Positions 45,302-50,487 of a DNA stretch of 64,000 nt are shown piece after piece. The DNA comes from Longimicrobiales bacterium (GTDB lineage: Bacteria; Gemmatimonadota; Gemmatimonadetes; Longimicrobiales; Gaopeijiaceae). The position numbers and the translations under genes were made by a program. A model generated the notes under the pieces. The model ran no database searches. It was not told where the DNA came from and saw only the letters and a program-made list of their open reading frames with translations. How positions within the stretch are numbered: position 1 is the first letter of the stretch; each line of letters starts with the position of its first letter. The stretch covers positions 2,025,340 through 2,089,339 of the forward strand of contig OX638356.1 of assembly GCA_951813395.1 (NCBI GenBank). The letters are read 5' to 3'.

Positions 45302-45673
45302 CTACCCCACGGAGTCGGGACGGCTGCTCAGTTCCACCATCCGATTCTCGACGGCGGTCCACACCCCCTCCATGAAGGTCACGTTGTCGCCGTAGCGCTC
45401 GGCGAAGTCCAGAAGGTCCTCCTCGGTCACTCCGTGGGCCGCCAGCACCGAGTCCCGTTTCGCCTCCGTAATGACCGCGTCGGCCGCGCGCAGTTCCGCC
45501 GTGCGCAGGCCGACGTAGACGTCCACGAACTGCTGCCAGGTCATGACCTCCTCGGGCGCCGTCCCGCAGCCGGCCGCGAGCACAACGGCGGCCGACGCGA
45601 GACAGGCGCGCACGCCCGCGCGCAGGCTCCGCCGCTGCCGGATCCGGACGCCCCGGCGGTGTGCCGGCGTCAC
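45302..45673 (-). CDS. Small predicted lipoprotein coupled to the OPT transporter
   Basis: From GTG 45673 the protein has 123 residues: basic start (RRGVRIRQRR), hydrophobic ACLASAAVVLAAGC with a lipobox (LAAGC), then a helical domain with the pattern VITEAKRDSVLAAHGVTEEDLLDFAE. It is likely lipid-anchored. GTGA shares four bases with the OPT stop, implying coupled translation. The longer frame to 45766 runs into the transporter and is rejected. No family recognised. Confidence 0.7.
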   Translation of the reverse strand: MTPAHRRGVRIRQRRSLRAGVRACLASAAVVLAAGCGTAPEEVMTWQQFVDVYVGLRTAELRAADAVITEAKRDSVLAAHGVTEEDLLDFAERYGDNVTFMEGVWTAVENRMVELSSRPDSVG

Positions 45674-47676
45674 GCTGCGTCCCTCCGGTTCGCGACGCGC
45701 CACAGCATCCAGCACAGTCCGGCGAATACCAGCGTCCCGACGAGCGCGGAGCTTCCGGTGAACCACTCCGACCAGCCGTGCCCCACGTGCCAGATGGACG
45801 CGGGATCGGCGTGGCCGGTGCGGTTGGCCACCGCAAAGATCACGGCGCCGATCAGAACGCCCACCAGCGCCGCGCCGGCGATCAGCCCGGAGGCGAAGAG
45901 CACGCCCCGCTCGCGGTGCTCGGCCAGGACGTTTTCGCCGTCCCCGGTCTCGCCCGCGTCACGGTACTTGCGGTTGAGCGCCCAGCGCATCAGACCGCCG
46001 ACGAAGATCGGGGTCATCAGCGACACCGGCAGGTAGACTCCCACCGCCAGGGCGAGCGACGGCAGCTTGAAGACGAACTCGGCGACCGCCGCGATCAGAA
46101 TCCCCAGCAGCACGAAGCCCCAGGGCAGGGACGCGTTCAGCACGCCGTCGATCACCAGGCTCATGAGCGTGGCCTGGGGAGCGGGCAGTCCGTCCACCGT
46201 GCCGATCCCGTAGGACTCGTTGAGCACGACCAGCACCCCGCCCATCACCGCCGCGCTGGCGAGCACGCCCAGCATCTCGCCCACCTGCATGCGCCTGGGC
46301 GTGGCGCCGACCAGGAATCCGGTCTTGAGGTCCTGGGACGTGTCGCCCGCGACCGCCGCCGAGATGCACACCACCGCGCCCACGGCCAGAACGGCCACCT
46401 TGGCCGCTCCGCTGCCGTCGTTCAGCCCGAGGGCCACGAAGATCAGCGACGTCAGGATCAGCGCGGCGATGGTCATCCCCGAAACCGGATTCGACGACGA
46501 GCCGATGAGTCCCACGATCCGGCTCGACACGGTCACGAAGAAGAAGCTGAAGATCACGATCAGAACCGCGGCCAGCAGTCCCACCGGCACGCCCGGCCAG
46601 AGCCACAGCGCAACCGCCAGCAGCGCGGCGACGGTCATCACCATCTTCAGCGGCAGATCCTGCTGCGTGCGCGGCAGGTTGCTTCCCGCGCCGGCTCCCA
46701 CCTGCCCCAGGCCCAGCCGGAAGGACTCGACGATGGTGGGCAGCGACTTGAGGAGCGTCACGATGCCGGCGAATCCCACGGCCCCGGCGCCGACGTAGCG
46801 GATGTAGTTGTTCCAGATATCGCCGGATCCCAGCGTCGACATGGGGTCGCTCGCCGGGTACACGACGCTGTCGCCGCCCCAGAGGTTGATCGCCGGGATC
46901 AGCACGAGCCAGGCGAGGGCGCTGCCCCCGAACATGATCGCCGCGATGCGCGGCCCTATGATGAACCCGACGCCGAGCAGTTCCGGAGTGAAGTCGCCGC
47001 CGATCTCGGCCTTCGCGGGGAGCGGCTGGCTCGGGGACTCGTTCCAGAGCGCGAGGCCGCTCCGGTTCGCGAGCGCCTGGTAGAGGGCGCCGACGCCCAG
47101 GCCGGAGAACAGAAGGCGCGCCTTGCCGCCGCCCGCGGCCCCGGCCACCTGCACCTCGGCGCACGCGGTGCCCTCGGGGTAGGGCAGCTTGCCGTGCTCG
47201 CGCGAGATCAGGTAGCGCCTCAGCGGAATCATGAAGAGTACGCCGAGCAGACCCCCGATCGCGGCGATCACCGTGATCTGGACGAGGTCCACCACGATCG
47301 TCGGATCCGACCGCTGCCAAATGAAGAGCGCGGGAAGCGTGAAGATCACCCCGGCCGCCACCGATTCGCCCGCCGACCCGATGGTCTGAACGAGGTTGGT
47401 CTCGAGGATCGTGCCGCGCCGGATCGCGCGGAAGATGGCCACGGCCATGACCGCCGCCGGGATCGACGCGCTCACCGTCAGCCCCACCCTCAGCCCCAGA
47501 TACGCATTGGCGGCGCCGAAGACGACGGCCAGGAGGAGCCCGATGAGGACCGCCTTGACCGTGAGTTCGGCAAGGGACTGTTCGGGCGGCACGAACGGGC
47601 GGTATTCGTCGCCGGGAACGACTTCGTACGCCTCGGGCGGCAGGCCCTTGCGCGCGGGAGGGTCGACCGATGCCAT
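45670..47676 (-). CDS. OPT family oligopeptide transporter
   Basis: 668 residues from ATG 47676, with roughly 15 hydrophobic segments. AANAYLGLRVGLTVSASIPAAVMA near the start, FTLPALFIWQ, and the hydrophilic PRTQQDLPLKMVM loop fit prokaryotic OPT-family permeases, thought to import short peptides or metal chelates with protons. Substrate is not determinable. Frames extending to 48966 overlap clpB antisense and are rejected. Confidence 0.85.
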   Translation of the reverse strand: MASVDPPARKGLPPEAYEVVPGDEYRPFVPPEQSLAELTVKAVLIGLLLAVVFGAANAYLGLRVGLTVSASIPAAVMAVAIFRAIRRGTILETNLVQTIGSAGESVAAGVIFTLPALFIWQRSDPTIVVDLVQITVIAAIGGLLGVLFMIPLRRYLISREHGKLPYPEGTACAEVQVAGAAGGGKARLLFSGLGVGALYQALANRSGLALWNESPSQPLPAKAEIGGDFTPELLGVGFIIGPRIAAIMFGGSALAWLVLIPAINLWGGDSVVYPASDPMSTLGSGDIWNNYIRYVGAGAVGFAGIVTLLKSLPTIVESFRLGLGQVGAGAGSNLPRTQQDLPLKMVMTVAALLAVALWLWPGVPVGLLAAVLIVIFSFFFVTVSSRIVGLIGSSSNPVSGMTIAALILTSLIFVALGLNDGSGAAKVAVLAVGAVVCISAAVAGDTSQDLKTGFLVGATPRRMQVGEMLGVLASAAVMGGVLVVLNESYGIGTVDGLPAPQATLMSLVIDGVLNASLPWGFVLLGILIAAVAEFVFKLPSLALAVGVYLPVSLMTPIFVGGLMRWALNRKYRDAGETGDGENVLAEHRERGVLFASGLIAGAALVGVLIGAVIFAVANRTGHADPASIWHVGHGWSEWFTGSSALVGTLVFAGLCWMLWRVANRRDAA

Positions 47677-47773
47677 GACGGGTCCTCGGATCTGGGGTTG
47701 TCGATGCGCCCGGGTTCTGGCCCGGATCTTCCCTGTAGTTAAGGGGGAGGCGGGCCCGGTCGGACCGAATGAC

Positions 47774-47849
47774 TGCCATTTTGGCAGGTCGGTCTGCCGA
47801 TTTGGCCGACCTGGGCGGGTTCGCCTACCCGAACGCTGCCAAAATGGCA
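47774..47849. promoter_or_regulatory. Phased palindrome array between OPT gene and clpB (candidate operators)
   Basis: TGCCATTTTGGCA (47774-47786) and TGCCAAAATGGCA (47837-47849) are exact reverse complements, and each is itself an inverted repeat (TGCCA-n3-TGGCA). A degenerate third copy, TGCCGATTTGGCC, lies at 47795-47807. The centres are 47780, 47801 and 47843, i.e. 21 and 42 bases apart, close to two and four helical turns. They lie in the 207-base gap between divergent genes. Confidence 0.55.
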
Positions 47850-47883: not shown

Positions 47884-50487
47884 ATGTTGAACGCGGACCG
47901 AATGACGCTGAAGGCCGCCGAAGCCATATCGGCGGCCGCCCGCGAGGCGCGTCGCCGGGAGCATCCGCAGATCGAGGGCGTTCACCTGCTCAGGGCGCTG
48001 CTCGGGCAGGAGGACGGCATCGTGGCGCCGGTGCTGCGTAAGATGGAGGTCTCGCCCGAGAAGGTTGCCGGGGACGTCGAGGCCGAGCTGGAGCGGCGTG
48101 CGCGCGTGAGCGGCGGGTCGGCGCCCGGCCCGTCCCGCTACCTGCGTGCGGCGCTGGATGCCGCGGAAGAGGCGGCCCGCAAACTCGCCGACGCGTATGT
48201 CTCGACCGAGCACCTGCTCGTGGGTCTCGCCGGACGGAAGAGCGACGCGGGCCGGATCCTGAGGGACAACGGCGTTACCGGCGAGAGGCTCGATGCCGCG
48301 CTGGAGGCGATCCGCGGCTCCCACCGCGTTACCGACCAGAACCCGGAGGACAAGTTCCAGGCGCTCAAGCGCTACTCCCACGACCTCACCGAGCGCGCCC
48401 GCAGGGGCAAACTCGATCCGGTCATCGGGCGGAACGACGAGATCCGCCGCGTGATGAAGGTTCTCGCCCGCCGTACCAAGAACAATCCCGTGCTCATCGG
48501 CGAGCCGGGTGTGGGGAAGACGGCCATCGCCGAGGGTCTGGCGCAGCGGATCGTGGCCGGGGACGTGCCGGCTTCGCTGAACGGCAAGAAGCTGGTGTCG
48601 CTGGACATCTCCGCCATGCTGGCGGGCGCCAGGTACCGCGGCGACTTCGAGGAGCGCATGAAAGCGGTGCTCAAGGAGGTGACCGAGGCGGACGGCCGCT
48701 ACGTGCTGTTCATCGACGAGATCCACACGATCGTCGGAGCGGGGGCCGCGGAGGGCGCCGTGGACGCGGGGAACATGCTCAAGCCCGCCCTTGCGCGGGG
48801 AGACCTGCGCGTCGTGGGCGCCACGACCCTCGGAGAGTACCGCAAGCACGTCGAGAAGGACCCCGCGCTGGAGCGCCGCTTCCAGCCCGTCTACGTGGCT
48901 CCGCCGTCGGTTGCGGACACGATCGCGATCCTCCGGGGCCTGAAGGAGCGCTACGAGGTTCACCACGGGGTGCGCATCACTGACGACTCGCTGATCACGG
49001 CCGCCAGATTATCGGACCGGTACGTGGGAGGGCGCTTTCTCCCGGACAAGGCCATCGACCTGATGGACGAGGCGGGGAGCCGGCTGCGCATCGAGATCGA
49101 TTCCCTCCCTCAGGAGATCGACGAAGTGGAGCGGCGCATCATTCAGCTGGAGATCGAACGGAAGGCGATGGCCCACGAAGACGACGCGGGCGCGCGGGAG
49201 CGGCTGGGCGGAATCGAGGCCGAGCTGTCCGAACTCCGCGAATCCAGCCAGACCATGAAGGCCGCGTGGCAGGCCGAGAAGATCCAGATCGCGCGGATTC
49301 AGGAACTCAAGGAGCGGGTGGACCGCCTGCGCACGGAAGCGGAGCAAGCCACGCGCCGGGGCGAGCTGGAGCGGGCGGCCGAGATCCATTACGCCGAGAT
49401 TCCGCGGGCCCGTGCGGACATCGGGAAGGCCGAGGAGCGGCTCGCCGGCCTCCAGACTCAGGGCAAGTTCCTCAGGGAGGAGGTGACCCCGGACGATATC
49501 GCCGAGGTCGTGGCCGAGTGGACCGGGATTCCCGTGACCAGGCTGCTGGCTTCGGAGCGCAGGCGGCTGGCGCGCCTGGAGGAGCTGCTGGCGAAGCGCG
49601 TTGTCGGCCAGGACCCGGCGCTGGGCGCGGTGTCGCGCGCCGTTCGGCGGGCCCGTGCGGGCATCCAGGATCCCGACCGGCCGATCGGGTCGTTCCTGTT
49701 CCTGGGGCCGACCGGGGTGGGCAAGACCGAGACCGCGCGCGCACTGGCCGAGTTTCTCTTCGACGATGAGCGCGCCATGGTGCGCCTCGACATGTCCGAG
49801 TACATGGAGTCGCACTCCGTGTCGCGGCTGGTGGGCGCGCCGCCCGGGTATGTCGGGTACGACGAGGGCGGACAGCTTACCGAGGCGGTCCGCCGGCGCC
49901 CGCACGCGGTCGTGCTGTTCGACGAGGTCGAGAAGGCGCATCCCAAGGTCTTCAACGCCTTCCTGCAGATTCTCGACGACGGCCGCCTCACCGATGGCCA
50001 GGGACGGACGGTGGATTTCCGCAACACGGTCATCATCATGACCTCCAATATCGCCGGCGCCGCGATACTGGCGCATTCGGAGGGTGGGGAATGGAGTGGA
50101 GTGGAGGAGATGGTGAAGGGGCGTCTCGGAGAGCATTTCCGCCCGGAGTTTCTTAATAGAATAGATGATGTTGTTGTATTCAAGCCGCTGTCACGTAGCG
50201 ACTTGACATCTATCGTCGAGATCCAGCTTGACCGCGTTGCCGCGTTGGCAAGCCAGCAGGACGTGACCCTGACGGTGGGGGACGGCGCGAAGGAGATCAT
50301 CACCGGGGAGGGGTACGACCCGGCGTTCGGGGCGCGGCCGCTGAAGCGCGCGATTCAGCGCCTTGTGCAGGATCCTCTGGCGATGGCGATTCTGGAGGGC
50401 GACGTGGTGCCGGGCGGCGCCGTGCGGCTGGAGCGGGGTGCGGGCGGCGGTCTCGTATTCGCCGCGGCGGAAGAGGCGGCGGGTTGA
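47884..50487 (+). CDS. clpB: ATP-dependent chaperone ClpB
   Basis: Hsp100 disaggregase. 867 residues: N-terminal Clp repeats ([23 protein letters not shown]), AAA1 with [15 protein letters not shown] (~residue 206), the middle coiled coil (~residues 400-520) and AAA2 with [15 protein letters not shown] (~residue 608) and [19 protein letters not shown]. The long middle domain separates ClpB from ClpA/ClpC. AGGAG precedes the ATG. No CIRCE or HAIR element was seen; the phased palindromes upstream may regulate it. Confidence 0.94.

Follow-up and report, generated by a model that had tools for sequence, protein, structure and literature searches.

Helically phased palindromes upstream of clpB as predicted enhancers of a sigma-54 activator of heat-shock genes in Gemmatimonadota

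The HspR/HAIR regulon of Actinobacteria takes in dnaK, clpB and lon. PspF, the activator of the sigma-54-dependent phage-shock response, governs a stress regulon as a bacterial enhancer-binding protein (bEBP) with no working phospho-receiver and is controlled by protein contact. HsfA of Myxococcus xanthus is an NtrC-type regulator. According to Ueki and Inouye (2002), as cited in PMC9548883, HsfA, with HsfB, activates the heat-shock gene lonD. In addition, sigma-54 promoters have been predicted computationally at dnaK, grpE, ibpA, groES/groEL and ATP-dependent protease genes of Bacteroidota and Planctomycetota (PMC12316311).

The system proposed here for Gemmatimonadota resembles each of these in part. 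It overlaps with the HspR/HAIR regulon (PMC2687793 is one study of it) in its target genes, but HspR is a MerR-type repressor with another operator, and such a protein was not found here. It shares with PspF a stress regulon under a bEBP without a working phospho-receiver; PspF, however, lacks an N-terminal regulatory domain and targets membrane-stress genes. The likeness to HsfA, as far as that source describes it, is that a heat-shock lon gene is switched on by a two-component regulator. HsfA is placed there in a histidine-aspartate phosphorelay, whereas the Gemmatimonadota protein is an orphan with a pseudo-receiver, a contrast drawn from description, and its predicted regulon also takes in dnaK, clpB and hsp20. 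The text of PMC12316311 does not name Gemmatimonadota and proposes neither an activator nor enhancers for these promoters, and groESL of the genome analysed here is under CIRCE instead. A literature search, with subscription papers mostly outside its reach, found no report on heat shock in Gemmatimonadota or on the motif described below. Control of chaperones by sigma-54 already has precedents, and sigma-54 paired with a bEBP is a known arrangement; a dedicated orphan bEBP for dnaK, hsp20, lon and probably clpB across the phylum looks new as far as the literature found goes.

Palindromes at clpB and their distribution

In the window, which is the whole 64,000-nucleotide stretch analysed, the 207-bp gap between clpB and the divergent gene of an OPT transporter was found to hold three palindromes (Table 1). 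The two exact 13-base sites and the degenerate third (10 of 13 matches) reported by the first-pass annotation were all present, with centres at 47780, 47801 and 47843, that is, 21 and 42 bp apart. The complete unit is 15 bp long (CTGCCA-N3-TGGCAG). Within the window alone, a search for TGCCAN3TGGCA with one mismatch allowed was unremarkable (3 found compared to 1.5 expected).

Table 1. Coordinates of the sites, the genes beside them and the candidate activator (window positions unless a contig is given)
Feature	Coordinates	Strand	Remarks
Predicted UAS site 1, CTGCCATTTTGGCAG	47773..47787	.	Exact palindrome apart from the 3-bp centre; belongs to the genome-wide set; 13-mer TGCCATTTTGGCA at 47774-47786
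Predicted UAS site 2, degenerate, CTGCCGATTTGGCCG	47794..47808	.	21 bp from site 1; position kept before clpB of relatives; 13-mer TGCCGATTTGGCC at 47795-47807
Predicted UAS site 3, CTGCCAAAATGGCAA	47836..47850	.	42 bp from site 2; clpB starts 41 bp beyond its centre; 13-mer TGCCAAAATGGCA at 47837-47849
Sigma-54-like degenerate conserved element, TGGCCCGGATCTTCCC	47718..47733	+	60.5 bp before site 1; score 8.5
clpB, probable target	47884..50487	+	867 aa; Pfam ClpB domains
OPT oligopeptide transporter, divergent neighbour	45670..47676	-	Probably not controlled by the array; Pfam OPT E=7e-100
Orphan bEBP, candidate activator	G000:C1:1908885-1910561 (L125 6886-8562)		558 aa; proteostasis island

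In the 4.09-Mb genome the exact 13-mer occurred at six places. One was within coding DNA; the other five preceded chaperone genes, namely clpB and dnaK (two each) and an hsp20 copy (one). The pattern CTGCCRWWWYGGCAG (CTGCCR-WWW-YGGCAG) gave 11 matches, where base composition predicts about 0.15 and the reversed control gave none. When one mismatch was allowed in CTGCCR-N3-YGGCAG, further clusters were found before lon and the second hsp20 copy. In the 13 genomes of the genus there were 101 matches to CTGCCRWWWYGGCAG and 4 to the reversed pattern, and the loci read in relatives were chiefly dnaK, clpB, lon and hsp20. Absence of the motif from orthologous intergenic regions, or an equal frequency in coding sequence, had been named by the annotation as outcomes that would speak against its reading. 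Neither occurred: the orthologous regions compared retained both the motif and the whole-turn spacing, and the equivalent of site 3 is kept at -39 to -44 of clpB in relatives.

These findings point to a heat-shock regulon of chaperone and protease genes (clpB, dnaK, lon and hsp20), rather than the single clpB locus, as the predicted regulated unit. At about ten site-bearing loci in relatives, many of them at contig ends, no heat-shock gene was evident, and these loci count against such a reading. One genome of the set (G008) has no exact site, yet keeps the sigma-54 promoter of dnaK. Presence or absence of the motif within the genus is uninformative for the choice of regulator, because the system is phylum-wide.

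The OPT gene was considered as a second target of the array and was rejected as a probable non-target. Its upstream region had no sigma-54 promoter (best score 2.3), and at two loci (L085 and L096) where inserted DNA parts OPT from clpB, the sites remain with clpB; for these two reasons it is probably not controlled by the array. The exception is a contig-start fragment in G005 (L092), with two sites before OPT. The earlier proposal of a cooperative or looping regulator for clpB, the OPT operon or both is thus supported for clpB, where orthologous regions keep the motif and its spacing, and probably fails for OPT.

Array phasing and sigma-54 promoters

The arrays hold one to five copies of the palindrome before dnaK, hsp20, lon and clpB. 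The 71 neighbour distances in 40 arrays fell at 19-24, 30-32, 40-45, 50-52, 62-63 and 82-83 bp, with a best-fitting period of 10.25-10.4 bp; the Rayleigh p of about 1e-18 is nominal only, because orthologous arrays are not independent. The sites were also phased to the promoter, with R=0.75 at 10.4 bp for dnaK and hsp20 (n=52, almost all from the genus) and R=0.84 for dnaK of other genera (n=23). Two observations count against phased enhancers: the lon arrays differ from those of dnaK and hsp20 in their phase to the promoter, and certain sites lie just 15-18 bp from the -24 element, which is unusually close for a bEBP. The palindromes are dyad-symmetric, often several together, helically phased and near a promoter, as would be expected of the UAS of a bEBP. 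The predicted enhancers, whose distances from the promoter range from 15 bp to more than 100 bp, would offer a natural helically phased library for studies of the contact between bEBP and sigma-54 polymerase.

At dnaK, hsp20 and lon, GG-N10-GC promoters were found downstream of the arrays (e.g. CGGCACGCGCCTTGCC, TGGCACGACCGATGCA and TGGCAAGGATCGTGCA). They were scored with a rough untrained matrix set from the published consensus (GG-N10-GC; TGGCAC-N5-TTGC), for which 5% of a mononucleotide-shuffled background exceeded 10.4 and 1% exceeded 12.5. Nearly all dnaK, hsp20 and lon regions of the genus scored 12-17 compared to the shuffled 95% level of 10.4, and none of the 48 window genes reached 12. 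Outside the genus, a sigma-54 promoter was present in 26 of 26 regions upstream of dnaK, sampled in nine families and two classes (p<=0.05 with dinucleotide shuffles as the background). In 24 of the 26, a palindrome lay upstream of that promoter at p<0.05, as scored with a palindrome matrix derived from the genus only. The rpoN gene (PF04552) was present in 21 of 21 genomes tested, a sample drawn from outside f7 and the single-bEBP genomes described below. These findings place dnaK, hsp20 and lon in a predicted sigma-54 regulon, and the canonical form of promoter is missing at clpB of the genus.

No canonical sigma-54 promoter was found before clpB in the genus, the -12 element being non-canonical. 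In most relatives a conserved element, TGGCCCG-N4-TTYC, precedes the first site by 60-62 bp, and in one by 82 bp; it scores 7.0-10.3 and was found in another genus too (L159). In the window its -12 reads TTCC and not TTGC, and its score falls below the 95% background level. The clpB array of the genus lies between this degenerate element and the gene. Good sigma-54 promoters precede clpB in four families (f4, f5, f6 and f7). The element of the genus is read as a putative sigma-54 promoter that has drifted and whose enhancer lies downstream of it, although a different sigma factor is possible.

An array that sits 40 bp before a start codon with no canonical sigma-54 promoter, as at clpB of the genus, would also suit operators that lie near sigma-54 promoters by coincidence and serve a regulator with no link to sigma-54, be it a repressor or an activator, HspR-like or an unknown heat-shock regulator. 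The targets dnaK, clpB, lon and hsp20 resemble the HspR regulon, and multiple operators occur for repressors too. Coincidence, however, leaves the phasing of the sites to the -24/-12 element at dnaK and hsp20 across families and the joint conservation of palindrome and promoter to be explained, and an HspR-like MerR protein was not found in the genome: by eye there was none among five PF13411 matches, the three short ones being TipA-like or other MerR types. HspR was dropped for want of a candidate. HrcA is encoded, but CIRCE (TTAGCACTC-N9-GAGTGCTAA) is restricted to groESL; it lies as a single perfect copy before groES (sigma-54 score 8.2) and is the sole CIRCE in the genome with three mismatches allowed, so that its absence from the clpB region, as annotated earlier, was borne out. 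This heat-shock regulator of the same genome, with its different operator, was therefore rejected for the arrays. Among the loci read there was no autoregulated transcription-factor gene adjoining the motif. A regulator unrelated to sigma-54 is thus improbable, and enhancers serving a sigma-54 activator explain the sites better than operators of an unnamed regulator do.

The candidate activator

The palindromes are read here, with a probability of roughly 0.8, as bacterial enhancers (upstream activating sequences, UAS) of a sigma-54 activator, the 558-aa orphan bEBP; arrays adjoin sigma-54 promoters at dnaK, hsp20 and lon, in a layout kept in sequence across Gemmatimonadota. The genome has six bEBP-like genes. 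The orphan lies in an island with the order hslV-hslU-argF-gcvT-bEBP facing engB-lon-clpX-clpP-tig-degP-dnaK (genes named by sequence reading, Lon by Pfam). The dnaK-degP-tig-clpP-clpX-engB block, again facing the bEBP, was found in other families too (L285, L286 and L287), and in some fifteen further genomes dnaK and the bEBP are on one contig, about 7-15 kb apart; the linkage was not seen in sampled f4 and f5 genomes. Of the 121 Gemmatimonadota genomes sampled, 120 gave an orthologue, where weaker matches may include paralogues. The closest named relatives are from Gemmatimonadota MAGs, the nearest being RHO3_bin_72 with 89% identity.

In G052 and seven f7/g43 genomes, the orphan bEBP was the only match at E<=1e-60 among 11 candidates scored per genome, a limit beyond which weaker or further bEBPs could exist. 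In these single-bEBP genomes dnaK keeps its sigma-54 promoter and palindromes, and clpB has both in the six g43 genomes read. By elimination and linkage, the orphan bEBP is likely the protein at the sites. The enhancers might instead belong to another bEBP of the genome, for example a response regulator that bears a receiver (L101-L104), since there are six bEBP-like genes and HTH_8 was present in four of four scanned. That the orphan alone was detected at E<=1e-60 in lineages keeping the enhancer and promoter layout, and that linkage to the chaperone island is confined to it, makes this improbable as well.

The orphan protein has an AAA+ domain (PF00158) and a Fis-type HTH (PF02954), with GAFTGA in its sequence, as is characteristic of a bEBP (NtrC family), and its HTH recognition helix GIGERTLYRK is nearly invariant among orthologues. 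Residues 1-119 had no match to the Pfam receiver (Response_reg). Their predicted fold is nevertheless of receiver type (pLDDT 92), nearest to FrzS, DctD and other receivers, and 20 orthologues have a conserved TGG-like motif in place of the phospho-accepting Asp. The protein departs in this from an NtrC-type (HsfA-like) response regulator, which has a receiver with a phospho-accepting Asp and a partner kinase. Kinase control is unlikely because the aspartate of the receiver-type domain is replaced by the TGG-like motif, and we infer that the protein is regulated through protein contact.

Dimers of the orphan bEBP would bind the sites along one face of the DNA and assemble into an AAA+ hexamer. 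At the promoters of chaperone and protease genes, this hexamer would spend ATP to open sigma-54 RNA polymerase. The activity of the bEBP would probably be set by protein contact, for example by DnaK or another chaperone releasing it during protein-folding stress, and groESL would be controlled separately by HrcA/CIRCE. More tentatively, with the odds somewhat against it, the orphan bEBP may direct a phylum-wide sigma-54 master heat-shock response, in which it is restrained by a chaperone or protease of the island, freed by unfolded protein, and activates dnaK, clpB, lon and hsp20 via phased arrays, in the role that sigma-32 or HspR has elsewhere. The proposed system would supply a poorly studied phylum with its heat-shock regulator, and with a circuit of sites, promoters, sigma factor and activator that is nearly complete and open to test. 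It would also put the core chaperone regulon under a sigma-54 switch that depends on ATP and is normally silent.

The palindromes might also be a dispersed repeat of REP/MITE type, have clustered by chance, or form RNA hairpins in the leader of clpB. In favour of these readings, CTGCCAAAATGGCAG could form a 6-bp stem, some MAG contigs end at arrays and duplicated hsp20 copies lie near a transposase. They are very improbable, as the sites mostly precede heat-shock genes at spacings in helical turns, most lie upstream of the promoter and therefore outside the transcript, and the reversed-pattern control was near zero.

Other arrays and their neighbourhoods

Several further arrays were noted. In G004, a CitMHS/TrkA_C transporter gene has a four-site array with spacings of 21, 22 and 21 (L076 3490-3567), and in G011 (L088) one site was found before the orthologue of this CitMHS-type transporter. 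Two genomes have a lone exact site downstream of the gene of a conserved NarL-type response regulator (L081 3152 and L090 3007), in a neighbourhood free of chaperone genes. MAG contigs often stop at or near arrays (five loci: L063, L066, L068, L069 and L086), possibly because assemblies break where DNA is repeated or rearranged.

The hsp20 gene with its three-site array is duplicated 8 kb apart (G000:C1:3192.3k and 3200.3k; L031 5229 and 13174), with an IS3-like transposase between the two copies. The second copy encodes just 47 aa, in which 27 residues of Hsp20 are followed by unrelated sequence; therefore one of the two arrays now stands before a truncated gene, which it would be predicted to drive. 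In several relatives, hsp20 or clpB arrays adjoin tyrosine-recombinase (integrase-like) genes (L080, L083, L089, L094 and L095), and a BrnT/BrnA-like toxin-antitoxin pair, recognized by eye, was observed beyond the hsp20 array in two genomes, at L064 4107-4665 and L074 3716-4229.
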